From Dioscorea cayenensis subsp. rotundata (Eukaryota; Streptophyta; Magnoliopsida; Dioscoreales; Dioscoreaceae): 64,000 bases of DNA. Position 1 is the stretch's first letter, and each line of letters begins with the position of its first letter. The position numbers and the translations under genes are program-made. The notes below the pieces were generated by a model. That model was not told the DNA's origin, made no database searches, and was given only the letters and a program-made list of their open reading frames with translations. This document shows positions 2,508-61,780 of this stretch, piece by piece. The stretch is taken from assembly GCF_009730915.1 (NCBI RefSeq), contig NC_052496.1, positions 667,875-731,874 on the forward strand, written 5' to 3'.

Positions 2508-4264
2508 TATTTATTTATTATTTTTTTTTTTGATGAAAAGAGCTCAAAAGCTATTTATTAAAATGGAGAGGCAGTACAGAAAAACTGAAAGGAACTAAAC
2601 AACTAGGAAGACAAGACAGTGGAGAAATTAGGAAGAAGCTACAAGAAGATTAAAAAGAAAAGCCATTGTCAACGACTAGCTTCATGATCCAACGAGGGAG
2701 ATCACGACCAGTTAGGAAGAGGTTCAAGTTGTGAAGATTAGCGCTGGTAGCCGAAAGAGCAAAAACAAGAGCACCCCAAAACCAGGAGAAGATGTTTGAT
2801 ATCAGTGACAGTTTGATCGAATCTCCAAGCGAGAGGGTTGTTGGTAACTGACAGAAGATGAGGTAATTCCTGGTTGCTGTGAAGAATACAACGAATGACG
2901 AGCTGCCTGTCTAGGGATGATATGAGGGCAATACCCAATGCTTTAATCTCTGATTCAAGAGCTGATTCAGCATCAAATTTGTAGCACCCTGCAAAAGAGA
3001 TGACATAAGTCGAGCTGGAGAAAAAGAACCCAAGATGTCCTACCTTGTTGGATTGTGTCCAGTTTGACACATAAAAAAGGAAATGACCATCCGTGTGCGA
3101 GAAATTGTTGAGGAGAAGACGTTGCCTGGTAAGAGAAGCCGAATCCGTCATGAAATCCTTGACATGAGCAATAGCTTTGCTGACAACTCTAGGGAAATTA
3201 GGTGAAGAATTCTGAAAAATTGCCTCACACCTGGATTTCCACAGAAACCAAATCGTAGCGGCAATGATGGAAATTGTATACATTGAGAAACCATAATCAG
3301 AGATCCACGCACCAGTAGAGATGTAATCAGGGAAGGAAATGTTGCAGCCCAGGATGTGATTAATAAGATTCCAGACCAATTGGGCTTTGCAACAATCCAA
3401 AAAGATATGATCAATGGATTTCAGTTCAAGGTTGCAGAAAATACAAAGAGATCTAGGACCAAGATTAATGCTGTTAAGATAATCTGTGGTAGAGATTCTA
3501 CCATGCGGCAAGAGCCAGATGAAATGTTTAATACGCGGAGCAATACGAAGGGACCAGAGTTTTTGCTAGCCTTCCCAGTTCAAAACAAAAGTAGGTTCAT
3601 GGTTAAGATAATGATATATTGCAGAGGAAATTTTCATTCTCTTGGGGCTAGGATGCCAGACCCAAAAGTTGTTGCCACCCTAGTCTATAGAGCAGTTGGT
3701 CTTAACCAGGGAACACAGACTATCCCCAAAGATGGTATTAAGAAGATCAAAATCCCAATGTTCACCAACAAAAAAACGCAGATAAATTGTTGCCAGGCAA
3801 ATCGGCGAAGACATTCAAGTAAGTGGGCTTATATGCTAAAGGAACCTCAAAGAGCCAAGGATCCTGAAGAAAAGATGTTTTTAAAGGATTGAAAGATTTG
3901 ATTCAAAGATTGGGCTTTAAAATAAAAGCAGTTTTACAAATGCCCCGAAAAAACCAAGAACACTTAGGAGGAAAGGAGTAACTCCAAAAGTTCAGGTGAT
4001 CATATTTTTGGCGAACAATGTCAACCCAAATTACATTATCAGCATTCAGATATTTAAAACCGTTCTTCGCCATAAGTGAGTGTTTAGCAAGAAGAAGATT
4101 ACGAAAGCCTAATCCCCCTCAGTTTTGTTATCAGTAACATTACGCCAAACGACAGCATGGATGCCATTTCCATTGCCTCCTTTGAACCAAAAGAAATCCC
4201 TAATCATTCTAGAAATTTCCTGAAGAACATTGTCTGGCATCGGATAGGCTGATAGGTAATTTCC
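2508..4264 (-). mobile_element. 5'-truncated plant L1-like LINE
   Basis: About 1.76 kb, read on the minus strand. The 3' end is an A-rich tail with TAAA repeats (T-rich on the plus strand at 2508-2532). The 5' end stops abruptly at 4264 inside the reverse transcriptase C-terminal region. Coding traces in order are: LSAYPMPDNVLQEISRMI and DFFWFKG (end of RT, about 4260-4130); a zf-RVT module with CIFCNLELKSIDHIFLDC and W..I (about 3470-3360); and an RNase H-like (RVT_3) stretch near 3060-2740 (GFFFSSS, KFDAESALESEIKAL). The upstream two-thirds of a full element (ORF1, endonuclease, most of RT) is missing, so it was dead on arrival. A 12-bp duplication flanks it. It lies in the same orientation as the kinase gene and now forms part of that gene's 3' downstream region. 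Confidence 0.9.
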
Positions 4265-9348: not shown

Positions 9349-12300
9349 CTATTTACTGATTTGGGTGTCTGATTCTACAGGGCCTGCGTCGGTTTTGTCT
9401 ACAGTACGAACCTCTAATACTTCACCAACATCTGCATTTCCGTTATCAGTTAGCTTGGTTTCCCCGTTTGCTGTTTTATCTATAAGATGTGTTTTAAGTC
9501 CTCTTGCGGGAGACACTGCAACTAATTGGCTAAGACCGTCTAACACATTCCTATGGTCTGTGATTAAATTGGCCCCGTTGGGATAGCACCGACCGAAGCA
9601 TGTTGCACAATAAGGATAAGCGACCTGAAAATGATCAAAAGAAGCCGGTTACGTATTTGGTAAATCCAGGCAGTCAGAATACAGGTCTGGAACATAGATC
9701 AGAGATGACCTCCAGAAATGCTTGGCAAAGTGAGAAGAAGAGGGTAGACTCATTTCCACGGAGAGAGCGGATAGAATTGTATCTTAATAATGAGTCGGAA
9801 ACAGATTGTAGTCCCTTGATAACCTCCTGGGCCAAAACATGTCTTAAGCTTAAAGGTGCACAAGGTCGTAATTCGTTCATAGCTGCTGAGAAACCTGCAG
9901 AGGACAAAGGAAAAGAATTAGACAATTCAGGATAATTATTTTACAGATTAGTTGAAATATTTTATTGAACGATCATCTTCTGTAAAGGCTAATATTAAAT
10001 GAACAAATACCTCCCCCTGAATGACATACAGTTGTCTTCTACAATAGCAACAAATTCAGAATGAGATCAAGAGTTCAGATACAGTGTGCTTCAACAATTT
10101 TGTTCTTACTTGTATCTGTATCTTCATTTTACAGCATTTGTGGTTTATCCACTTTTAAAAATGGAGAAGAAAAGTGGTACATATACAAGATTTTAATAGT
10201 TGGAATAGGGAGATGAGAATAATAAATGTCACCAGGAAAAACATTTTAGCAGCATAGCAATGTCTTAAACAGATGGCTATCTTGATTGCACATTGTCTCA
10301 AAATCAAACAACATGAGTAGAGATCATCAAAAGAAACAAAAATATATAGCCACTAAAGGAGGTACTCGGGAGAAAACTCACCATTAACAAACACAGCAAC
10401 AGGAGGGTGCTCCATCAAAATAGAAGGTGGAGTTACATCATCATTGCTTTCATCAATTGCACCATTGGCTGTGAAGCCCACAGGTGGCAAAGGAACCCAA
10501 CGATGTGAATCCAAAACCACCTACAAAAGGTGAATTTGAGTATGGGAAACTGAAAAAAAAAAAAAGTTGCATTCGCCAAACAACTTTGTTTCTAAACTCT
10601 GGATAATAGCCAGGAAACAAAAAGACTTCAAACATATTAGAATATAAATATAGGGCCAATAAACTTCAATGCAACCTTAGGATAAGTAGTAGTCTAAAAC
10701 AAATTACAGTTCAGCTAAAATGTAGCAAGGAAACGAAGAGACCTGCCAAAATATTTTAGAATGTAAATCATTGAGGGCCAATAAACTTCAATACAACTTT
10801 AGCCGAAGTAATGGTCTACAACAAATTACAGTTCTGCTAAAATGTAACCACGAAACGAAGAGACTTGGCAGAAATTTAAGAATATAAATGGCATTAAGGA
10901 CCAATAAACTTCAATGCAACTTTTGGCAACATAATTACAACAAATTATAGTTCAGCTAAAATGAAGCCAAATACGGAAAGACCTGGCAAACATTATAAAA
11001 TATATATGACATGGAAGAAAGACAAACAAACTTCAATGCGACTTTATGCTTAGTACTGGTCTATGGCACTTTAGAAGATATTCAAGAAGTGAACTATTAC
11101 CAATAATCATATTTTAAAAAATATATATTTAAGAATCTAAGATTTTTATAAACTCTCATACCTGAAAATTCTCAACAGCTGTGTTCATATTCTTTGAGAA
11201 TAATTTGAAAACTGCACTGCAAATAACCAAGTAATCTTAGTAAAAGAATAGATAAAACAAAAAAGTTATCCCACCAAATTGAAATAGAAATGACTGTTTA
11301 CTCTTCAAATAGAGGTGGGAGCAATCCTCGGAAATCCAAGCCAACCAACCCAAGCCCCATTGCACAATACTGTAAAGAATGGAATTAAAAATAAATTAAT
11401 ATGACATAAATACACACAATAGAATGGAAGAAGAAGAACAAGAGTTATGAACAGAACTAGGTCAGTGACCAAGAAACATAACTTTTTGTCAACAGGGAAA
11501 TTTATAGTGACCAAGAAACATAACTTTTTGTCAACAGGGAAATTTATAATACAAGACATGAGCTTGGACACGATTTCAACAAAAAAGTTCTTTAATTCTT
11601 GAAGTCATATAGCAGACCTATCACAAGAATGAACACAATGGACAACTATGGTAAATGTACCATGCATTGATCTAGTATATTTGACAGTGATCCACCATCG
11701 GTAATCCTCGGTAACATGGCTTCAAGAGTAATCAGGTGGTTTTTAATCTGATGCATTGCCCAACTGAAGAGAAGTCCGCCATCATAGTTTTCCTCACTCC
11801 CAGATTTATCATTGTTGAATATTGCTCTGTATTGATTAACAACATCAAATAAATGCATCCTATGGCAGTTTACCATCCCTTTTAAATAGTCATAAACATT
11901 TCTTTGGTCCAGGTCATCGAGGATGCCTGAGAGCCATGCCTCTCTGCACCTTAAGAACTGCACACAGATAAGATTAAATATCAGAAATAATGTTTGAAGG
12001 CCAAACAAATTATATAGATGGATTAATTCATAAATGGATGTGGCATAAATCATTCCCCTCTCCTTTAAATCAACATTGGTCCAGTAGAATCTTTTATATT
12101 CAAAATTGACAAAATATACTGAAAATATCAGCCATTGACCTCTTGATTCAAGTCTCAATGCCTAGTAAGTGTTAGACTAGAAGTCCAGAGCCAAATATCT
12201 GATGTGTAAACTCAACAATTTAATGATCATCCAAATATGCAAAAACAGAAAGCATATAATACAGTAATTTATTATAAAATTTTATCAAACTTAAATTAAA

Positions 12301-13360
12301 TCAAAAATTCAACGTCTCAACAAGCAGAAGTAGACTGCAGATTTTGGAAAAAAAGGGGGTTGCCCATAAAATTATAAAAGACAAACCAAAAGATCATGTA
12401 ACCAAATATCAAGCATACCTGCAGACGCATTTCAGATTCTGTGAATACTCCAATGCGTCTCAGGTGGCCAACAATACGGAGACATTCTGGCAACTGCAGA
12501 TGATCAAGATAACATCAACGATAAGTTACATACATATTCAGGGAAAGGGAATGGGGGGCCATTGCTTTTAGAAAGCAAATTTTGAAGCTCAGGATCACTT
12601 GATAAACCAGCACGGACTATTTAGAATACTGATTCTTAACAAGGATGAAACAATGGTCATAATATTATGAGCAAATACATAAAATATTTCATATGTTTAT
12701 ATAAAAAACAAACTACATCAAACAACTTCTGAAAATACTTGTAATTACCTGAATATTTGATCTAAGTTTCTGAAGAAGCTGAGAAAGCATAGATTGTGTT
12801 GTCTGCTTGACTTCTGCTGCTAGTGCCTGAATGACAGGTAACCTTGATTCCAAGAATCAAATGCTTGATAATGTTATGAATCTACGGCTCAATTGTAACA
12901 GAAACTGTTTATCAAAGTAAATAACAACAATAGCAACAAAAATGATAGTGAACTTACTCTGTATGCATCTTTGACAGTTTGTTGACAAAAGCTTCTAAAT
13001 CAAGAGCTTCATCATAATTTCCATTACGTATGCATCTAAGAAGAAAATAATGAAAGCAACTTTAAGAAAATTCTCAACAGAACCAAGTTAAAGGAAAATT
13101 TTATTATGACATCAAAAATTTATGCGCAACAGAGGTTTCAAAGCAACAAATAATAGAAGTTATAAATTTACGTTTACTCCAAGTGTGGATAATTCAAACC
13201 ATCTACTGTGACCATTTCATTAACCAAGGAGGGCTCTACAAACATATGTGGCTAATGGAATCCTCAAGTTGGGCAAAAAAATCAAGCAATTGACACGAAT
13301 TACACTGTTGTAAGTAAATTCTAGAAATCAGCAATGAGTCCAAGATCCCAAGAAAAAATG

Positions 13361-15404: not shown

Positions 15405-18400
15405 ATGGCGGATGATCCTCCGGTCAAGTACAAGCGGAGGAGAGTGTCAGCCATTAGGCACTTCCCCAAGGGTTGCGGTCCTCACGCCCCGAAGCTTGCC
15501 GATTTGGTGAATCCCGCGGAAGAAATTCATCCAACTTCTGTTCCAGATGATCCGGTTTTAGTATCCGCTACTAAGGAAGTGTCGCTTCCCCAGGAATTTG
15601 AGAAGGCGGCTTCGGATCGGACGGGGCTTGATGAGTCTTTGAAGGTATTTAATGGAGAATCCGTGGATTTGATTGTTGGTGATGGAGGTGCTCCATCGGA
15701 GGCTGTTGGAGGTGAAGAAAAGATGGATGTGGAGGTCGGTAAGGCGAAAGAGCTTGTTTTGAAGATGTATCCTCCTCCCAGGAGACGGAAAGTCTCGGCG
15801 ATTAGGACTTTTCCTGCTGGTTGTGGAAGCAAAGCTCCTCCGCTGATGAAGGCTTTGGAAGATGAGAGTTTGATTGTGAGAGGAAATGAGAATGTTGAAT
15901 TAGATGGAAGAATTGTGGAAAACACTGGAAGCAGACTTGTTGATCCAGCTCCAGCTACTCATGTGGGCAAAAGCATGGAAGCGGAGGAGAAGCACAATGG
16001 GAAGGAAATTGAATGTGTTGAGAAGGTTAACAAAGATGATGAGATTGGTCTGGACACTAATGATTCTCCAAAAGCCAAGAGTGCAGAGGGTGTTCAAAAG
16101 CTTGTGGTGAAGCCAAGGGATAATAGCAGGGAGTTTGGTTCTTCTTCTGTTGTTCTGAAGGTTGGTGATGTGGATGGCCGGAAGCTTGAGAGCGACAGTG
16201 AGATTGGTCGGGATGGTTCTGAGTCTCCAAAGGTCAGCAATGTGGATGGTGACCAGAAGCTTGATGTGAAACCAGGGGATAATGAGAAGGTCGTTGAGTC
16301 TGCTTCTGTTGTTCAGAAGGATGCTAATGTGGATGTTCTGAAGAAGCTTGCATTGAAGCAGAAAGTAGTGGATAAAAGCTCAAACCAGGTTGTTGTTCCT
16401 GTTGGTGAGGTTGAGGTTGAGGAAAAGGGGAATGCCACCAAACAAGCCAAAGAGAGAACTATAGAAAATATGGGCCTGGTTTGTGTCCGGTCTTTGGAAA
16501 ACATTCATTCGAGAGAGAATGTTGCTGAAGGAGAAGGCAAGAAGATGACTTTAAATAGGTCAGTTTCGGAGAAGAAGATGGAAGTGGATAACTTGAAACA
16601 TGATGCCAAGAGTACTAAATTTGGATTACAAGAGAACAGGCCTTTTCAGCTAGATGCCACATCCCCATCTAGAATTAAAATAGTTGACAGAGATGGTTCT
16701 AGTTTGCCAGAAAGAGAAGAAGACAGCAGATGTTTGATGATTCGAAAAAACACTAAGAAGCTCGCCCGTAAGTCCTTGGTTAGATCCCAGGAGAAAAGTA
16801 TTGTTCTGTCTGCCCAAGAGCAGGAGGATTTGGTAAGTTATGCGGATAGGTTGATTGTTCAGGCTCTAACGTCCGCTGAAAACTGCCCATGGAAGCAGGG
16901 CAAGAAACCTATAAAAAGTGGATCTCAGACTGTTCAGGCTCTTACGACCGCTGAAAACTGCCCATGGAAGCAGGGCAAGAAACCTATAAAAAGTAGATCT
17001 CAGACTGTTACCCCAAAGAACAAAGTGAAGAGAAATGGAAAAGCGTCTGGCAAGCTCTCTGCTGGAGTGGCTAGTTCTCAGGGTACGAGTTTAGTAGCTG
17101 TAAATGATGAAAATGGTTCATTGCATTGGGAGGATGAAATTAGACAAGCACTTGTTGCACATAAAAAAACTCGCCAATTTGATGTCACCTTGACTCCATT
17201 GGGTCCTTCCATGCCGTGTCCTCCTGAAAGTGGTGGTAATGAAGGGGTTGTCACTCGAAACAGTGTGAAGAAAACGCTGCGATTATTTCAGGTGATTGTC
17301 CGGAAGCTCTTGCAGAGAGAAGAATCCAAAAGAGCGGACCCAAACCGGGGTAACAGGATTGATTTGATGGCAGCTAATATTCTTAAGGAGCATAATGAGT
17401 GGGTGAACAAAGGGAAGAATTTTGTTGGAGTGGTTCCTGGAGTGGAAGTCGGTGATGAATTCCACTACAGGGTTGAACTATCCATTATTGGTCTCCACCG
17501 ACCATTTCAAGGTGGGATAGATGCGACCAAGTTGGGTGATATAAATGTTGCAACAAGTATTGTGGCTTCTGGTGGCTATCCTGATGATTTAGACAGTTCA
17601 GAATCTTCAGATGTCTTGATTTATTCTGGTTCTGGAGGGAATCCTCAGAAAGGTGAGATACAGGGTAGTGATCAAAAGCTTGAGCGTGGTAATCTGGCAC
17701 TAAAGAACAGTATAGAGACCAAGACACCAGTTCGAGTGATCTATGGTTTTAAGGAGACTAAGGCAAGCGAGTCTCACGATTCAAAACCAAAGTTAGTCTC
17801 GACGTTTACATATGATGGCTTGTACCTTGTGGAGAGTTACTGGAAAGAGAGAGGCAAACATGGTGATGTTTTTAAGTTCAGGCTGAGAAGGATACCTGGA
17901 CAACCAGACATTGGTCTGAAAGAAGTGAAGAAATCAAAGAAATTGAAAGAACGTGAAGGACTATGTGTTAAAGACATATCCAATGGGAAGGAGATCATCC
18001 CCATTTGTGTTATTAATAATATTGATAGTGACCAGCCACTGCCTTTCAAGTACATCACCAAGGTCATAGCTCCTTCATGGTATATCCCGACCCCTCCAGT
18101 TGGCTGTGAATGCACTAATGGGTGCTTAGATTCAGTTAACTGTGCTTGTGCGATTAAGAATGGAGGGGAAATTCCTTATAACTTCAGTGGTGCCATTATC
18201 CAAGCAAAGCCTCTTGTTTATGAGTGCGGCCCCTCCTGCAAGTGTCCTCCATCCTGCAGTAACAGGGTTAGTCAGCATGGTATCAAAATACCTCTTGAGG
18301 TCTTCAAAACCAGATCAAGAGGCTGGGGAGTGAGATCCTTGTCTTCCATACAATCAGGTAGTTTCATCTGTGAGTACATTGGAGAGCTACTCCAGGAATC

Positions 18401-18812
18401 AGAAGCTGAACAACGGTGCAACGATGAGTATCTTTTTGATATTGGCCATAACTATGATGATCAGGCTCTCTGGGAGGGCCTGCCAACTCTCATTCCGGCC
18501 TTGCAGTCTAACCCTCTTGGTGAAGTCAAGGAAGATTCTGGCTTTACTATTGATGCAGCTGACTGTGGAAATGTTGGGCGATTCATCAATCACAGCTGCT
18601 CTCCAAACCTCTATGCCCAAAATGTCCTCTATGACCATGATGACAAGAGAATTCCTCACATAATGTTTTTTGCTGCTGATAATATCCCACCACTTCAAGA
18701 GTTGACATATCACTACAACTACACAATCGATCAGGTTCGTGATTCTGAGGGTAACATAAAACGAAAAGATTGCTATTGTGGCGCTCCTGATTGCACTGGC
18801 AGACTTTACTAA
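15405..18812 (+). CDS. SUVH-type histone H3K9 methyltransferase (SRA-preSET-SET), SUVH5/6-like
   Basis: A single 1135-aa reading frame without introns, as in many SUVH genes. The long, basic and acidic N-terminus carries two copies of an RR.VSAIR.FP.GCG motif (about residues 12-25 and 129-143) and a 25-residue tandem duplication (nt 16857-16931 and 16932-17006). The SRA/YDG domain is at about 668-815 (GVVPGVEVGDEFHYRVEL, TFTYDGLYLVESYW). The Cys-rich pre-SET begins with CECTNGC at about 901. The SET domain contains SRGWGVRSL, FICEYIGELL and NHSCSPN at 1062-1068. The post-SET ends CYCGAPDCTGRLY at 1123-1135. All catalytic and zinc-binding elements are present, so the enzyme looks functional. 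Known role of the family: binds methylated DNA through SRA and writes H3K9me1/2, in a loop with CMT3-type DNA methyltransferases. The length and N-terminal motif favour the SUVH5/6 branch over SUVH1/3 or SUVH4. Confidence 0.95.
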   Translation: MADDPPVKYKRRRVSAIRHFPKGCGPHAPKLADLVNPAEEIHPTSVPDDPVLVSATKEVSLPQEFEKAASDRTGLDESLKVFNGESVDLIVGDGGAPSEAVGGEEKMDVEVGKAKELVLKMYPPPRRRKVSAIRTFPAGCGSKAPPLMKALEDESLIVRGNENVELDGRIVENTGSRLVDPAPATHVGKSMEAEEKHNGKEIECVEKVNKDDEIGLDTNDSPKAKSAEGVQKLVVKPRDNSREFGSSSVVLKVGDVDGRKLESDSEIGRDGSESPKVSNVDGDQKLDVKPGDNEKVVESASVVQKDANVDVLKKLALKQKVVDKSSNQVVVPVGEVEVEEKGNATKQAKERTIENMGLVCVRSLENIHSRENVAEGEGKKMTLNRSVSEKKMEVDNLKHDAKSTKFGLQENRPFQLDATSPSRIKIVDRDGSSLPEREEDSRCLMIRKNTKKLARKSLVRSQEKSIVLSAQEQEDLVSYADRLIVQALTSAENCPWKQGKKPIKSGSQTVQALTTAENCPWKQGKKPIKSRSQTVTPKNKVKRNGKASGKLSAGVASSQGTSLVAVNDENGSLHWEDEIRQALVAHKKTRQFDVTLTPLGPSMPCPPESGGNEGVVTRNSVKKTLRLFQVIVRKLLQREESKRADPNRGNRIDLMAANILKEHNEWVNKGKNFVGVVPGVEVGDEFHYRVELSIIGLHRPFQGGIDATKLGDINVATSIVASGGYPDDLDSSESSDVLIYSGSGGNPQKGEIQGSDQKLERGNLALKNSIETKTPVRVIYGFKETKASESHDSKPKLVSTFTYDGLYLVESYWKERGKHGDVFKFRLRRIPGQPDIGLKEVKKSKKLKEREGLCVKDISNGKEIIPICVINNIDSDQPLPFKYITKVIAPSWYIPTPPVGCECTNGCLDSVNCACAIKNGGEIPYNFSGAIIQAKPLVYECGPSCKCPPSCSNRVSQHGIKIPLEVFKTRSRGWGVRSLSSIQSGSFICEYIGELLQESEAEQRCNDEYLFDIGHNYDDQALWEGLPTLIPALQSNPLGEVKEDSGFTIDAADCGNVGRFINHSCSPNLYAQNVLYDHDDKRIPHIMFFAADNIPPLQELTYHYNYTIDQVRDSEGNIKRKDCYCGAPDCTGRLY
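16857..17006 (+). repeat. 75-bp in-frame tandem duplication within SUVH
   Basis: Two adjacent 75-bp units (16857-16931 and 16932-17006) differ at only about three bases and encode two copies of a 25-residue block containing AENCPWKQGKKPIKS. They lie just before the basic linker that precedes the SRA domain. Confidence 0.95.
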
Positions 18813-27594: not shown

Positions 27595-27643
27595 CATGCA
27601 AATAGATTTGGCCATTTAAGTCCTCATTCTCCTCCTATATAAA
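27595..27643 (+). promoter_or_regulatory. MIR156 core promoter: RY motif and TATA box
   Basis: A perfect TATATAAA box lies at 27636-27643, and an RY core CATGCA at 27595-27600 about 36 bp upstream. Transcription is expected to begin near 27670, in the CT/CA-rich leader that runs to about 27800. This fits the Pol II, TATA-driven promoters known for plant MIR genes. Confidence 0.75.
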
Positions 27644-27825
27644 CACCATCTAACCTTCTTCCATTCCATCCATCCACTCAACTACTTACAACTGAATTAA
27701 TCTCTCTGTCTCTCTCTCCCTCTCTCACACACACTCTCTCACTCACTCATTCACTCACTCTCACCCATACACATGTACACACACACACAAAGAGAGAGTT
27801 AGGAAGAATAGTGGAAGGGGTTTAA

Positions 27826-27928
27826 AGGAGGGTGACAGAAGAGAGTGAGCACAAATGGTGTTTTCTTTGCATGGGAGGGAGTCATGCATGGGACTATGTG
27901 TGCTCATTTCTCTATCTGTCACCCACTA
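27826..27928 (+). ncRNA. MIR156: MIR156 precursor, copy 1 (intact hairpin)
   Basis: The mature miR156 sequence TGACAGAAGAGAGTGAGCAC lies at 27833-27852 on the 5' arm. The opposite arm at about 27899-27924 (tgtgctcatttctctatctg then tcaccc) pairs with it. GGGTGACAG at 27830-27838 pairs with CTGTCACCC at 27916-27924, and GAGCACA at 27847-27853 pairs with TGTGCTC at 27899-27905. The middle has the small bulges typical of this family. The loop is about 45 nt. miR156 targets SPL transcription-factor mRNAs and maintains the juvenile phase. A short reading frame overlaps the hairpin but has no coding signature. Confidence 0.95.
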
Positions 27929-28849
27929 CCAATTCCCTTATGGATTTTTTCTTTTATTTTCTTTTCTTTTCTCTTCTTTTCTTTTGCATTTTTTTTAAGC
28001 CTAATCTTGTCGGTGTTTTAAGTTTTCTTGTTAATCCTCCTCCATTGCATGCTAGAGTTTTCTTTACTTGCATGTAAGTTTAGGTGTAAAATTTGACTAC
28101 CAAAAGATTTCAGTTAACCAAATTACATTAGTTTGACTAATAATATGAGTTTTATTTTTTATTTTTTTATTTTTTATTTTTTTTCTTTGACATGTTAATT
28201 TTATAGGAGTCACGGGTTAAATCAATATGGATGAACTATTTTCAAACTATTTTTCTTAGCGAATGTTTTTTGCTTATACAAGTATTCAAACTATTTTCAC
28301 TTCTAATTTTTTTAATAACTATATATAATAAGATCATTTTATTTTTTCATTATTAGGATCAAAATTATATTAAAATATTGATTTTTATAAATTAAGGTTT
28401 TTGTTTGTAATCCCTTGTAATAATTACATGCTATTGTGAAATGTTTTTGTTTATAAACCTCGCTCCATAAATCATTGTAATTTGTATTTTTATTCTCTCA
28501 TATCAGAAGTTAACTAAAAAGTTTTATAAAAAAGGCCTAAACTATTTTTTATCTTTTTCTTTATATTTATTTTGAGAAAAAAAAATCAATATATATTTTC
28601 GTAAAATTCGTAAGTTCGGTATATAAGCAAATATGATTTTTATGACAATATATCACCAATTATCCACTTAGGGCTTGCAACCAATATGCTCTCTTCATAA
28701 ATTCATAACTAAATTGACTTAATTATAATTACATTAATTTATACAAGACATGTTCTCTCCCGCTAATCTCCGATGTTTATCACTTCGTTACTCATCAATA
28801 TGTAGCTTGTGTGCTAATTAATTATATATAGGAAAAGAGATAGAAGTGG
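27929..28849 (+). other. Spacer between the two MIR156 precursors
   Basis: AT- and T-rich sequence with a pyrimidine tract at 27946-27997 and no reading frame of note. Its start (tttaagcctaatcttgtcgg near 27996) resembles the sequence 3' of the second precursor (ttttaagttcagtcttgttgg), pointing to a shared origin of both units. Confidence 0.6.
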
Positions 28850-28896
28850 AAGAAGGATGACAGAAGAGAGTGAGCACACATGGTGTTTTCATGCAT

Positions 28897-28901
28897 GGGA
28901 G
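28897..28901. repeat. 5-bp target-site duplication, left side of Copia
   Basis: gggag immediately precedes the TG of the 5' LTR and is repeated at 33934-33938 after the CA of the 3' LTR. Five bp is the usual Copia duplication length. Confidence 0.95.
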
Positions 28902-29392
28902 TGTTGGAGATTTCTGATCAGATCCCAATGAACGCACTACCGCAGCTCCAGGTCGCTTCCAGGATTCCAGGTTTTGGTGCCCATCTTGTCTCCAGGAATT
29001 TAGCTTTCTTGCGTTGCTTGTCAGGACCGAAAACGAGGAAGAATTGGAAGTTGTTTAACTGAATGCATTTGTTTGTATTGCATCTGGGGATGCTTAAATA
29101 TATATGTAATTGTGTTTGTCTGTAATGTTGAGTTAATTTTGAGTGTTCTCTTGCTCTGTACTGTGCGGCCATGATGGTTGGTCTGCTAGGTGTTTGTATA
29201 AATGCCTGATGTTTAATTGAATGAAATGCAGTGAATTATTGAGTGTGAAATACATCAGTCTTCTTTCTCATTCACTTTGTTATCATTGTATGATTATGTT
29301 GTGATACAATTAAGTGAGAATTGAGTGTCAATTCTAGAAATCAGGTCCATCCCAAGTGTGCTGGTTGCTCATCCTTGCTCTCGATCCAAACA
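28902..29392 (+). repeat. Copia 5' LTR
   Basis: 491 bp, starts TGTTGGAGATTTC and ends GATCCAAACA. It contains a TATAAAT promoter-like motif at 29197-29203. Same length as the 3' LTR and about 99% identical. Confidence 0.96.
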
Positions 29393-29393
29393 G

Positions 29394-29404
29394 TGGTATC
29401 AGAG
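29394..29404 (+). other. Copia primer-binding site
   Basis: TGGTATCAGAG, one base after the 5' LTR. This is the standard plant Copia site complementary to the 3' end of initiator methionine tRNA. Confidence 0.92.
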
Positions 29405-32400
29405 ATAGTTATTAAATTCAGACAAGGATGTCTAGCTCCTCTTCAGCAAAAGATTCTGAAGTTCCTTATTTCAAAGGTGAAAACTACAACCTTTGGGCAT
29501 TGATGATGAAAACCATGTTTAGATCAAAGGATCTATGGAAATTGGTGGAGAAGGGATTCAGTGAAGAAGGAGATGCTACTACTAGAATCAATGATAGCCT
29601 CAAAAAGGATGCCAAAGCCATGTATTTAATCCAGCGAGCACTTGATGCAAGGATACTGGTAAGGATCTCTGAAGCCAAGACAGCTAAGGAGGCATGGGAC
29701 ACTATAAAGACTGAGTTCCAGGGAGACTCAGACAACTCCACTATGCAGCTTCATGCTCTTCAAAGGGAGTTTGATGTCATCAAAATGAAGCATGGTGAGA
29801 GTGTTCAGGACTTCGTGAGCAGGGTATTAGACATAGTCTACCAAATCAGAGTCTTGAAGCAGGACCTCCCTCAAAAGGCAGTAGTATCCAAAATACTTAG
29901 AAGTTTGACTCCCAAGTTCTCACAGGCCATTCACTCGATCATAGAAGCAAAGGACTTAAATACAATATCAGTTGAGCAATTGAGAAGCTCACTGAAAAAT
30001 CATGAAACTATATTAAATATTGAAGCAAATCAACATGAAGGAGAGAAGGCATTGTATGCAGGCAGAGGAAGTGCTCATGTTACTGAGCATTCAAATAGAG
30101 GGAGAGGAAGAGGCCGAGGCTTCTCTCCCAGAGGAAGGGGACGCGGGCGTGGTAGAAGCAGTGACCCAGCTCGCACTGAACCCAGTTTCTCTGCAGAATT
30201 TAACAAATCCCATAAGGGAGTACAATGCTTTGTTTGCAAGAAGTTTGGGCATGTAAAAGCCCAATGTTGGTATAGAAACAGGGAAGCTAATGTTGTGAAG
30301 GAAGAGAAGCCAAAGGAAGGAGAAGAAGTGGCTTTTATGGCTATCGGTGAAGAACTAAAACAAAAAGGAGGATTATGGCTAATTGACAGTGGTTGCTCTA
30401 ACCATATGTCAGGCGAGAAAGACTTGTTCCAGAGCATAGCTACCACACCAAGTCATTCCATCAGAGTCGGGGATGGAAAGGTTCTCAAAGTCGAAGGCAT
30501 CGGCAAGGTAACACTCTGTTCAAGCAGAGGAAAGACTACTATCTTGAACGATGTCCAGTATGTACCAAATTTAACTCATAATCTTTTGAGTGTCGGTCAA
30601 ATGATGAATGCTGGGTTTGACATCGAGTTTGCTAGAGGAATCTGTAATATCAAGGAGACTGAAACCAAGGCACAAGTCGCTCAGGTGGCCATGACTCCTA
30701 ACAGGTTGTTTCCTCTACAAGCTAATGACGTTGATTTTGCAAACTTAGCACAAGGGGAAGATGAAGCCTCTGATCTCTGGCATAAGAGGTATGGGCACAT
30801 AAACAAGAAGTACCTGAAACAAATATCAGAATAGGGTCTGGTGTCTGGCTTATCGAAGATCACAAGTGTGAACTCATGTGAAGCATGCTCACAAGGGAAG
30901 CAAGCTCGCTCTGTGTTTCCCAAAGGCCAAGCAAAGTGAGCATCCGTACCATTAGAATTAATCCATGGCGACCTTGTAGGCCCAATCAAAGCAACATCCA
31001 TCGGAGGTAACTCTTACTTTCTCCTACTGACTGATGACTTCTCTAGGTACAGTTGGGTGTACTTTATTCACCGAAAATCAGAAACCTTTCAGCTCTTCAA
31101 GCAGTTTAAGCTTCTGGTGGAGAAACAATACTCATCCCAAGTCAAGGTTCTGCGCACTGATCGCGGAGGCGAATTTATATCCAATGAATTTGAAGCTTTC
31201 TGCAAGCTCGCCGGAGTACACCACCAACTATTAGCTCCACAAACCCCCAGCAAAATGGCGTCGCCGAACGCAAGAACAGAATAGTGACGGAAATGGCTCG
31301 AACCATGCTGAAAGAGAAGAAGGTGCCGTCAGAGTACTGGGCAGAGGCTGTGGCAATGGCGGTTTACATCCTTAATTGATCTACAACATCGGCGGTGAAG
31401 TTCCGAACTCCGTTTGAAGCTTTGACCGGTGAGAAGCCATCAGTTGACCATTTCAGGGTGTTTGGTTGTCTGGTCTACGCCTTTGTTGACCCGATGCAGC
31501 GGTCCAAGTTTGACGCCAAGTCACGACCCGGAGTGCTGATTGGATACTGCGATCGGTCGAAGGCCTATCGGATCATTGATCCTGATTCAAAGCGCGTACA
31601 CGTCAGCAAGGATATCCGGTTCTTTGAAGAAAAGAGCTGGGATTGGTCCAGCTGTGCTGACTCAGCTACCTCAACTTATGCAGCAGCAGCACGTGAGGAG
31701 CGAGTGACATCTCTTAACAGAAAAGAAAATATACCTCAACCGTTCGATCAGACTGATGAACGGGCTGATTCACATCTTCAGTTCTCTTCTAATTTCAGAG
31801 AAGAAGAATCAGTGGTCGGAGAAGACGGTGGCGCTCCAACGAGGTATAGAAATCTCAGTGATCTCTATAGCTCTTGCTCTCTAGCCCTTTCTGGAGGGGA
31901 CCCTTCATCTTACGAAGAAGCTGCAAGGAGTGAGGAATGGATTACGGCCATGAAGGAGGAGATGAATGCCATAACAAAGAATCAAACATGGCATCTAACT
32001 GCTCTTCCAGAAGGAAAGAAAGCAATAGGACTGAAGTGGATCTTCAAGTCAAAATTCAATCCAGATGGCTCACTATTAAAAAGAAAAGCTCGTATCGTGG
32101 CTAAAGGCTACTCACAGCGAGAGGGAATTGATTTCGAAGAAGTTTTCTCTCCAGTCGCTCGAATGGAGACTGTGCGACTGTTCTTATCCATAGGAGCACA
32201 AAAGGAATGGAGAATTTATCAACTGGATGTAAAATCCGCATTTCTAAACGGAGATCTCATGGAAGAGGTGTACGTTATGCAACCAGAGGGGTTCGCTGTA
32301 AGTGAGAAGAAGGAAGACGTGTATCGTCTTCATAAAGCTCTATATGGATTACGTCAAGCACCCAGGGCTTGGTATAGTCGTATAGACACTCATTTTTCAC

Positions 32401-33430
32401 AATTGGGTTTCACTCGAAGTAGCAATGAACCCACTGTATACTCCAAGATGCAAGGTAATTCTGATGTTCTCTTACTTTGCTTATATGTTGATGACATTTT
32501 ATACATGGGGTCTTCAAAGGAGTCTTTGATTGAGTTCAAAGAAAATATGTTGAAGACTTTTGAGATGACTGATATGGGACCGATGAGGTTCTTTCTCGGG
32601 TTGGAGGTGATATAGAGGAATGGATATGTTTTCATATCACAAAAGAAGTATGCAGGGGATCTCTTGCTCAGGTCAGGGATGGAAAATTGCAGGGAAGTGG
32701 ATACCCCAATGAATTCAAATGAAAAGCTCTGTCTTCAGGACAACTCTGAGAAAACAGATCCACAGAGATATAGAAAATTAGTTGGTGCTCTGCTCTACTT
32801 CACCCACTCACGGCCCGATATTATGTTTGCTGTTTCAATGGTTGCTCGGTTCATGCATTCACCGAGTGTACATCATTTAGGGGCAGTAAAGCGAATCCTT
32901 AGTTATGTTAAAGGAACGATCGGCTTTGGGATTCATTACAAGAAGGGAGAAAATTTCAAATTGTTGGGGTACTCTGACAATGACTGGGGAGGATCTCAAG
33001 ATGACCGGAAAAGCACCTCAGGGTGGGTATTTTCACTAGGCTCTGGTGTTATAGCTTGGTGTTCGAAGAAGCAGTCAATCACTGCTCTTTCAAGCACTGA
33101 AGCAGAGTACATTTCATTGACGGCTGCCACATGCGAGGTTGTGTGGCTTCGTCGTCTTCTAGAAGATCTAAATGAGAAGTAGGAGGACTCAAGTGTGATT
33201 CTCTGTGACAATTCATCAGCACTTTCTATCGCCAGGAATCCTATACACCATGGGCGAACGAAACACATTGATACCCATTTTCATTTTATTCGGGACCTTA
33301 TAAAGAGTGGCTTAATTAATGTGAAGCATTGTGGTACTGACGATCAGTTAGCAGATGTATTTACTAAAGCCCTGTCCAGAATCAAGTTTAGTTCATTCAC
33401 ATAGAAGCTAGGAGTTGGAGAATTATCTGA

Positions 33431-33442
33431 TCAAGGGGAGTA
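33431..33442 (+). other. Copia polypurine tract
   Basis: The purine-rich tcaaggggagta directly precedes the 3' LTR and is the expected plus-strand primer site. Confidence 0.85.
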
Positions 33443-33933
33443 TGTTGGAGATTTCTGATCAGATCCCAATGAACGCACTACCGCAGCTCCAGGTCGCTTC
33501 CAGGATTCCAGGTTTTGGTGCGCATCTTGTCTCCAGGAATTCAGCTTTCTTGCGTTGCTTGTCAGGACCGAAAATGAGGAAGAATTGGAAGTTGTTTAAC
33601 TGAATGCATTTGTTTGTATTGCATCTGGGGATGCTTAAATATATATGTAATTGTGTTTGTCTGTAATGTTGAGTTAATTTTGAGTGTTCTCTTGCTCTGT
33701 ACTGTGCGACCATGATGGTTGGTCTGCTAGGTGTTTGTATAAATGCCTGATGTTTAATTGAATGAAATGCAGTGAATTATTGAGTGTGAAATACATCAGT
33801 CTTCTTTCTCATTCACTTTGTTATCATTGTATGATTATGTTGTAATACAATTAAGTGAGAATTGAGTGTCAATTCTAGAAATCAGGTCCATCCCAAGTGT
33901 GCTGGTTGCTCATCCTTGCTCTCGATCCAAACA
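33443..33933 (+). repeat. Copia 3' LTR
   Basis: 491 bp, co-terminal with the 5' LTR and differing at about five sites. Its own TATAAAT-like promoter motif lies about 0.2 kb upstream of the stranded MIR156 star arm, reading toward it. Confidence 0.96.
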
Positions 33934-33938
33934 GGGAG
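33934..33938. repeat. 5-bp target-site duplication, right side of Copia
   Basis: gggag, identical to 28897-28901. Confidence 0.95.
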
Positions 33939-33983
33939 ATCTTGGGAGTTCATGCTTGAACCTATGTGTGCTCACTTCTCTGT

Positions 33984-34215
33984 CTGTCATCTTATTCATC
34001 ACTAACTCTCTTCTTCTTCTTCTCCTTCTCCTTCTTCTATGTTTTAAGTTCAGTCTTTTTAATGTTCTCTTAATTCTGTACTCTTCTTTCCCTTCTATAT
34101 TTTTTTTTTGGTGTGTCATCTTATATATATATCACTAACTCTCTTCTTCTTCTTCTACATATATTTTTTAAGTTCAGTCTTGTTGGTGTTCCAATTAAGT
34201 ACTATTCTTTCACTT
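33984..34215. repeat. Diverged ~130-bp tandem duplication 3' of MIR156 copy 2
   Basis: tgtcatcttat...atcactaactctcttcttcttcttc at about 33986-34023 recurs at about 34115-34157. Each copy is followed by ttttaagttcagtctt (34042 and 34168) and a ttctttc-containing tail. The copies are clearly related but differ by several indels. The first copy includes the very end of the hairpin; the second carries no miR156 sequence. Confidence 0.75.
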
Positions 34216-34637: not shown

Positions 34638-34717
34638 TTTCAAATATTGTTAGCTGATATATGTGATTTATATTGTGTTTCAAATATTGTTAGCTGATAT
34701 ATGTGATTTATATTGTG
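34638..34717. repeat. Perfect 40-bp tandem duplication
   Basis: The unit starting tttcaaatattgttagctg occupies 34638-34677 and 34678-34717 without difference. Confidence 0.9.
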
Positions 34718-34774
34718 TGTATTATATATAAAACTATTGAATAAATATAATATATTAATAAAATATATCAAAAT

Positions 34775-60880: not shown

Positions 60881-61780
60881 ATGGATGCGCCGCCACCGAC
60901 CAAATCAACGGCTGAGAATGCATCACCCGCACGCTTCGTGATCGACGTCGAGGAAGCGGAGAACATGATGAAAGCGCAGGGGTTGTCGTCGGTGATGGAC
61001 CTTCTGCCGGTGCTGGTCCCGGCGGCGAAGAGGCTAGCAAGAGCTCCAATCTCCGGCCATCTCGTCGGCGCCGTTGGATTGGGTGAGAGTGGACGGATCT
61101 ACTTTGGAGCTAACTTGGAGTTCCCCGGACTCCCGCTCCACCACTCGGTCCACGCCGAGCAGTTCCTCATCACCAATGCCGCAGCTCACCGAGAACGAGC
61201 CATTCGCTGCATCGCGGTCTCCTCCGCTCCTTGTGGTCACTGCCGCCAGTTTTTCCAGGAGATCCGCAATGCTTCTCAGATCCAGATCCTCATCACTGGC
61301 TCCGGCTCAGATCTCGCCTTCCGCCCTCTCTCCTACTACATCCCGGAGCCCTTTGGCCCTTCCGATCTCCTCCACGACGACTCTCCGTTCCTCCTTGAGC
61401 CCCATAACAACCGAATCGAGATCATCGACGACGGGCACGAGGCTCCCAATAGGATCCTCGGAGCGGCGGTGAACGGAGCGAGATCAGCTCACGCGCCCTA
61501 CAGTGGGTGCGCGGCGGGGTTTGCGGTGGGGGATGGGAAGGGGAGGGTGGGAGGAGGAGGTTACATGGAGTCCGCGGCGTACAACCCGGGGATGGGGCCG
61601 GTGGCGGCGGCGCTGGTGGCATACCTGATGGCCGGAGGTGGCGCGTGGGAGGACATCGTGGAGGCGGCGCTGGTGGAGAAGGAGAAGGCGGTGGTGCCTC
61701 AGGAGGCGACGGCGAGGGTCGTTCTCGCCGCCGTGGCTCCCAAAGCCCGCCTTCAAGTCTCTCATTACCGCCAGGCTTAA
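60881..61780 (+). CDS. CDA1: Cytidine deaminase (two-domain, plant CDA1-type)
   Basis: Intronless, 299 aa, close to Arabidopsis CDA1 (about 301 aa). The N-terminal deaminase domain contains the zinc-binding catalytic motifs HAE (91-93, in HHSVHAEQ) and PCGHC (117-121), plus GAVGLGESGRIYFGANLEF. The C-terminal domain (about 190-290; APYSGCAAGFAVGDGKGR, YNPGMGPVAAALVAY) repeats the fold without the zinc ligands, as in plant and E. coli enzymes. It converts cytidine and deoxycytidine to uridine and deoxyuridine in pyrimidine salvage and catabolism, in the cytosol. The coding sequence is far more GC-rich than its surroundings, especially 61490-61740, typical of intronless monocot genes. No defect is seen. 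Confidence 0.95.
   Translation: MDAPPPTKSTAENASPARFVIDVEEAENMMKAQGLSSVMDLLPVLVPAAKRLARAPISGHLVGAVGLGESGRIYFGANLEFPGLPLHHSVHAEQFLITNAAAHRERAIRCIAVSSAPCGHCRQFFQEIRNASQIQILITGSGSDLAFRPLSYYIPEPFGPSDLLHDDSPFLLEPHNNRIEIIDDGHEAPNRILGAAVNGARSAHAPYSGCAAGFAVGDGKGRVGGGGYMESAAYNPGMGPVAAALVAYLMAGGGAWEDIVEAALVEKEKAVVPQEATARVVLAAVAPKARLQVSHYRQA

Follow-up and report, generated by a model that had tools for sequence, protein, structure and literature searches.

Can a plant microRNA (miRNA) gene still deliver its product when a retrotransposon has parted the two arms of its hairpin? This question is raised by a stretch of 64,000 nucleotides of the yam Dioscorea cayenensis subsp. rotundata (contig NC_052496.1, positions 667,875 to 731,874 of the forward strand; hereafter the window), which harbours a tandem pair of MIR156 genes. 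miR156 controls the juvenile-to-adult switch of plants. The upstream gene (copy 1) has an intact hairpin, and the downstream one (copy 2) is split by an element of the Ty1/copia type bounded by long terminal repeats (LTRs). We consider it likely that this is a young insertion that has probably turned copy 2 into a null or near-null gene, by termination of transcripts in the LTR and by disturbing a hairpin that would be cut from the loop first. The parts of the two genes are as follows, numbered from the first nucleotide of the window.

27832-27922, + strand: MIR156 copy 1, intact hairpin (Rfam RF00073 match and fold)
27833-27852, + strand: mature miR156 of copy 1 (exact match)
27902-27921, + strand: star-arm sequence of copy 1 (exact search)
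28854-28901, + strand: 5' arm of MIR156 copy 2 with the left half of its loop (pairing in the full-length fold, alignment with copy 1)
28858-28877, + strand: mature miR156 of copy 2 (exact match)
33939-33993, + strand: 3' arm of MIR156 copy 2 with the right half of its loop (full-length fold, energy scan and alignment)
33970-33991, + strand: predicted miR156 star of copy 2 (from the fold pairing, with 2-nt 3' overhangs)

A search of both strands of the window for the miR156 20-mer TGACAGAAGAGAGTGAGCAC, with up to three mismatches allowed, gave two occurrences, both of them exact. Both are on the + strand, at a distance of 1,025 bp and each in the 5' arm of its hairpin, and none of 100 shuffled sequences gave a match. 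Copy 1 matches RF00073 with 69.1 bits (gathering score 62), and nothing else in the window reaches the gathering score of an Rfam model; copy 2 in its split state has no such match. The fold of copy 1 (27815-27940) has an energy of -61.1 kcal/mol (z -7.55; equalled by 0 of 200 shuffles). The sequence TATATAAA is found at 27636, and copy 1 itself lies upstream of the insertion and appears untouched. Its star differs from that of copy 2 by two bases.

We then asked whether the separated arms of copy 2 belong together. All 20 bases of the mature sequence find partners in 33968-33989, where the star strand has two 1-nt bulges (33976 and 33982). The original prediction, made from the sequence alone, had announced perfect complementarity on both sides of the miRNA; this is borne out for the flanks of the duplex, the miRNA/star duplex itself being imperfect because of the bulges. 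Its positions for the mature and star sequences were also recovered, the latter with the overhangs noted above. With the flanks of the insertion joined and the target-site duplication counted once, copy 2 folds at -66.9 kcal/mol (z -7.67), a value equalled by none of 200 shuffles. A hairpin with the miRNA and the star on opposite arms is obtained in copy 2 only in this way or when the entire 5.2 kb are folded. In the latter case, the predicted minimum-energy structure of 28830-34010 (5,181 nt) retains the arm duplex, with 28854-28897 paired with 33951-33993, and 16 pairs of the upper stem next to the miRNA duplex are kept, out to 28897/33951. This full-stretch fold shows only that thermodynamics would permit the arms to pair. 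The insertion point falls in a small interior loop that adjoins the uppermost stem with its tetraloop, some 4 nt away from the terminal loop. The insertion spares the mature, star and lower-stem sequences and most of the upper stem.

Unrelated half-sites might in principle pair by coincidence, an explanation to which we attach practically no weight. The duplex energy between the 3' and 5' arms of copy 2 is -57.8 kcal/mol, compared with a background mean of -16.8 and a standard deviation of 5.3 for 12,788 windows of 60 nt on both strands; + strand windows overlapping the arms were excluded, and the mean and standard deviation include a few antisense-of-arm windows. The 14 best-scoring windows all overlap a MIR156 arm, of copy 1 or copy 2, or are the antisense of such an arm. 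In addition, the flanks of copy 2 align to copy 1 in the order 5' arm, loop and 3' arm, and are hence co-linear with their paralogue. The energy scan, the shuffles and the alignment strongly contradict chance pairing, which we rejected, having found nothing in its support. Just 3' of the 3' arm of copy 2 there is a local duplication (33989-34067 and 34122-34191; 80-82% identity, spacing 124-133 bp); a weak, gapped and A+T-rich match is likewise seen downstream of copy 1.

The miRNA and its star are separated in copy 2 by 5,092 nt, of which 5,032 belong to the element and 60 to the host (55 without one copy of the duplication). This agrees with the predicted distance of about 5.1 kb, all but about 55 nt of it a single LTR element. 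The separation exceeds the ordinary size of plant foldbacks, and copy 2 thus falls outside the size expected of a MIR156 hairpin; according to a figure quoted in PMC11706861, 98% of plant miRNA hairpins reach up to slightly above 300 nt. The inserted element comprises the following features.

28897-28901, + strand: target-site duplication GGGAG, left copy
28902-33933, + strand: Ty1/copia-type LTR element of 5,032 bp, in sense orientation to MIR156 (LTRs, duplication, Pfam domains)
28902-29392, + strand: 5' LTR, 491 bp
29394-29405, + strand: primer-binding site TGGTATCAGAGA, after the 5' LTR
29428-30834, + strand: open reading frame (ORF) with gag PF14223, Pol beta-barrel PF22936 and part of GAG-pre-integrase PF13976
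31395-32615, + strand: ORF with SH3-like PF25597 and reverse transcriptase RVT_2 PF07727, in a frame different from that of the gag ORF
32664-33182, + strand: third ORF, in the frame of the reverse transcriptase ORF, with a stop at 33180 and no Pfam match
33433-33440, + strand: purine tract AAGGGGAG, likely the polypurine tract, beside the 3' LTR
33443-33933, + strand: 3' LTR, 491 bp
33934-33938, + strand: target-site duplication GGGAG, right copy

This element is of the Ty1/copia type. It has paired LTRs between target-site duplications, a primer-binding site and a purine tract, and its domains on the + strand come in the order PF14223, PF22936, PF13976, PF25597 and PF07727, i.e. with integrase-side domains before the reverse transcriptase, as in Copia. 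We take TGGTATCAGAGA to be a primer site of the initiator-methionine-tRNA type, on the basis of the general consensus for such sites. The Pfam scan covered nine of the 23 ORFs, three of them from the element, and five of the nine matched; positions 30835-31394, where the integrase core is expected, lay outside the scan. The PF13976 match is barely over its cut-off (29.1 against 28.4 bits), and that to PF07727 covers profile positions 1-209 of 244. From its position, the third ORF would correspond to the RNase H part. The gag ORF terminates at an in-frame TAG at 30832, further stops are found at 32613 and 33180, and the gag and reverse transcriptase ORFs are frame-shifted relative to each other. 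The coding genes are therefore broken, and the element is non-autonomous as it stands. As is generally known of Ty1/copia insertions in plant genes, it has LTRs, a 5-bp duplication, a primer site of the methionine-tRNA type and Copia domains; unlike those ordinary insertions, it targets a miRNA loop and its genes are broken.

The boundaries of the element also bear on the possibility that it was misjoined between the halves of an intact gene during assembly. Near-identical LTRs can mislead assemblers. However, the 5-bp duplication is present on both sides, the LTR ends are exact, the primer site and purine tract are in place and the gene halves are co-linear with copy 1; a misjoin would not be expected to create a duplication. 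An assembly error is hence highly improbable. A protein identical to the product of the cytidine deaminase ORF at 60881-61780 occurs as two member sequences on four contigs, which may represent haplotigs or several assemblies and could carry an allele free of the insertion.

The insertion is young. The two LTRs have TG...CA ends and differ at five positions (four transitions and one transversion), which corresponds to a Kimura two-parameter divergence of 0.0103. Ages of 0.40, 0.73 and 0.79 million years were obtained at assumed substitution rates of 1.3e-8, 7e-9 and 6.5e-9, respectively, on which the date depends, with limits across all three of 0.13-1.83 million years. The earlier claim of a young Copia insertion in the loop of one member of a tandem MIR156 pair, with TG...CA LTRs, a gggag duplication and arms left intact, is thus upheld by the LTRs, the domains, the fold and the alignment. 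The LTRs are 99% identical, yet the coding region is broken, which may reflect mobilization in trans or fast decay by cytosine deamination. A 14-mer search of the window for a further LTR copy gave just two overlapping matches, at 13317-13318.

Does the integrity of the arms then speak for a function of copy 2? The original prediction had stressed that every base needed for the miRNA duplex is spared, which in our view says little. In the absence of selection, 0.31 substitutions are expected in 60 nt of arm since the insertion, and the probability of none is 0.73 (limits 0.49-0.91; from 0.81 to 0.61 for 40 to 95 nt of arm). The arms appear perfect because the insertion is young, and we rejected the step from intact arms to function, since unchanged arms are expected at the age of the LTRs without selection. 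That the arms have undergone no change at all is itself an assumption about their sequence before the insertion.

Copy 2 probably yields little or no miR156, and copy 1, whose hairpin is kept, probably still supplies it. Many transcripts coming from the MIR156 side would be expected to stop at poly(A) signals in the sense 5' LTR, ahead of the star arm. The 5' LTR contains TATAAA at 29197 and AATGAA at 29220, motifs that suggest promoter and poly(A) roles. On readthrough, the arms would be produced about 5 kb apart, in conflict with loop-first cutting on nascent RNA in precursors of the miR156a type. PMC4973740 reports that the primary transcript of Arabidopsis miR156a (pri-miR156a) is cut from loop to base, first above the duplex, and that nearly all tested variants of its upper stem reduced miR156, more strongly near the duplex. 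In Arabidopsis loop-to-base precursors, both cuts are described as finished co-transcriptionally, still at the locus (PMC9023350). An experimental parallel comes from tomato MIRtop14, whose arms have a genomic separation of 700 bp. When the 5' splice site of its intron (~568 nt, from products of 752 and 184 nt) was mutated, the miRNA was almost undetectable in Arabidopsis (PMC11706861).

Several points weigh against a loss of copy 2. The LTRs lack the canonical AATAAA and have just the variant AATGAA, which makes termination in the LTR a weak proposition. The whole-stretch fold keeps the arm duplex, which leaves the cutting of a continuous transcript possible in principle. The 16 surviving upper-stem pairs adjoin the duplex and thus form the region most sensitive according to the data of Kim et al. 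(PMC4973740). Moreover, the loop-to-base mode would have to hold in yam as in Arabidopsis, from which we have transferred it, and the miRtop14 evidence concerns a different miRNA family, assayed in Arabidopsis.

An alternative idea is that copy 2 is functional, the element being read through or spliced and DCL1 cutting the paired arms despite a large loop. In addition to the predicted arm duplex, this idea has precedents in intron-split miRNAs, namely miRtop14 and miR444, as mentioned in PMC11706861. The ends of the element also provide GT...AG at the exact junctions, because the duplication starts and finishes with G. With a crude matrix, however, a ranking of 2,960 GT and 3,892 AG sites of the window places the junction donor at the 37th percentile of the former and the junction acceptor at the 80th of the latter; better-ranked donors are found nearby at 28883 (90th percentile), 28952 (95th) and 28971 (91st), and an acceptor at 33885 (92nd). 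Furthermore, an unspliced loop fails in the miRtop14 experiment as described in that source (PMC11706861), and some, if not all, of the transcripts should be terminated by the sense LTR. We therefore regard a functional copy 2 as unlikely.

Another route would be the pairing in trans of two half transcripts, one ended in the 5' LTR and the other started in the 3' LTR, to feed a dicer. Co-folding of the assumed halves 28830-29245 and 33770-34010 is predicted to gain 46.4 kcal/mol over the separate folds, with 20 of 20 miRNA bases paired in trans. The transcript ends are nevertheless assumed, 15 of the 20 miRNA bases pair elsewhere when the 5' half is folded alone, and the element is probably methylated. 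We know of no precedent for a miR156 assembled in trans and deem this route very unlikely. If the split copy did still give miR156, through readthrough, removal of the Copia as an intron or the pairing of half transcripts, the retrotransposon would have made an intron-split miRNA gene, an outcome that we hold to be quite improbable.

The loss of copy 2 that we favour can be set beside known alterations of MIR genes. Apple miR172p and the maize tasselseed4 alleles are reportedly parallels. The rice tandem MIR156b/c and maize Corngrass1, as presented in PMC2607281, similarly have two tandem MIR156 hairpins in a monocot; in contrast, the yam pair has a spacing of 1 kb and a split member, and Corngrass1 stems from over-expression. 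In rice Bdt1, the transposable element nDart1 is likewise located at a MIR156 gene, MIR156d. There, according to PMC4585910, the insertion is a DNA transposon that lies 38 bp before the start site and causes a gain of function, whereas in yam an LTR element lies within the hairpin and a loss is expected. Finally, Solanaceae miRtop14 and monocot miR444 have genomically distant miRNA and star arms that are separated within the hairpin. The miRtop14 interruption is described as a true spliced intron (PMC11706861), unlike the young retrotransposon of yam with its poorly ranked splice sites at the exact junctions. Among the open-access papers listed, no title or opening of an abstract described an LTR element within the loop of a plant miRNA; of those listed on miR156, one concerns yam by its title (PMC6998100). 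With its Copia close to the hairpin apex, the yam MIR156 gene adds a new case to those of MIR genes that carry a transposable element.

The locus had been proposed as a natural test of the loop size that DCL1 tolerates. It does offer one natural case, but its value is reduced: the sense LTR element may carry its own terminator and promoter, which confounds the test, and the smaller miRtop14 experiment already exists. Provided that it segregates in yams, a natural insertion into one of two tandem MIR156 genes would serve as a useful dosage allele. The difference between the stars of the two copies means that ordinary small-RNA libraries could show whether copy 2 is dead. More generally, a recent insertion that leaves a miRNA gene perfect by its arms, yet probably lost, can mislead annotation that relies on the homology of the arms.

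The remainder of the window contains other ORFs and repeats. The ORF at 15405-18812 has, among the matches listed, 94% identity over its full length to a histone H3-K9 methyltransferase of D. alata; the 7,991 candidates with the most shared words were scored in this comparison. It includes a 75-bp (25-residue) in-frame tandem duplication at 16856-17009, whose repeat word has two occurrences in the D. alata protein P0001 and one in P0002, and is absent from P0003. The cytidine deaminase ORF mentioned above shares 93% identity with a D. alata protein among the matches listed, and a D. cayenensis subsp. rotundata deaminase, also among them, shows 71% identity to it and is perhaps a paralogue. A 40-bp unit is duplicated exactly in tandem at 34638-34718, a 122-bp unit forms an array of 3.2 copies with 78% matches at 10629-11004, and an exact 42-bp duplication is present at 11464-11548. 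On the - strand, the ORF at 2738-3511 has a zf-RVT domain and is probably the remnant of a reverse transcriptase resembling those of long interspersed nuclear elements.

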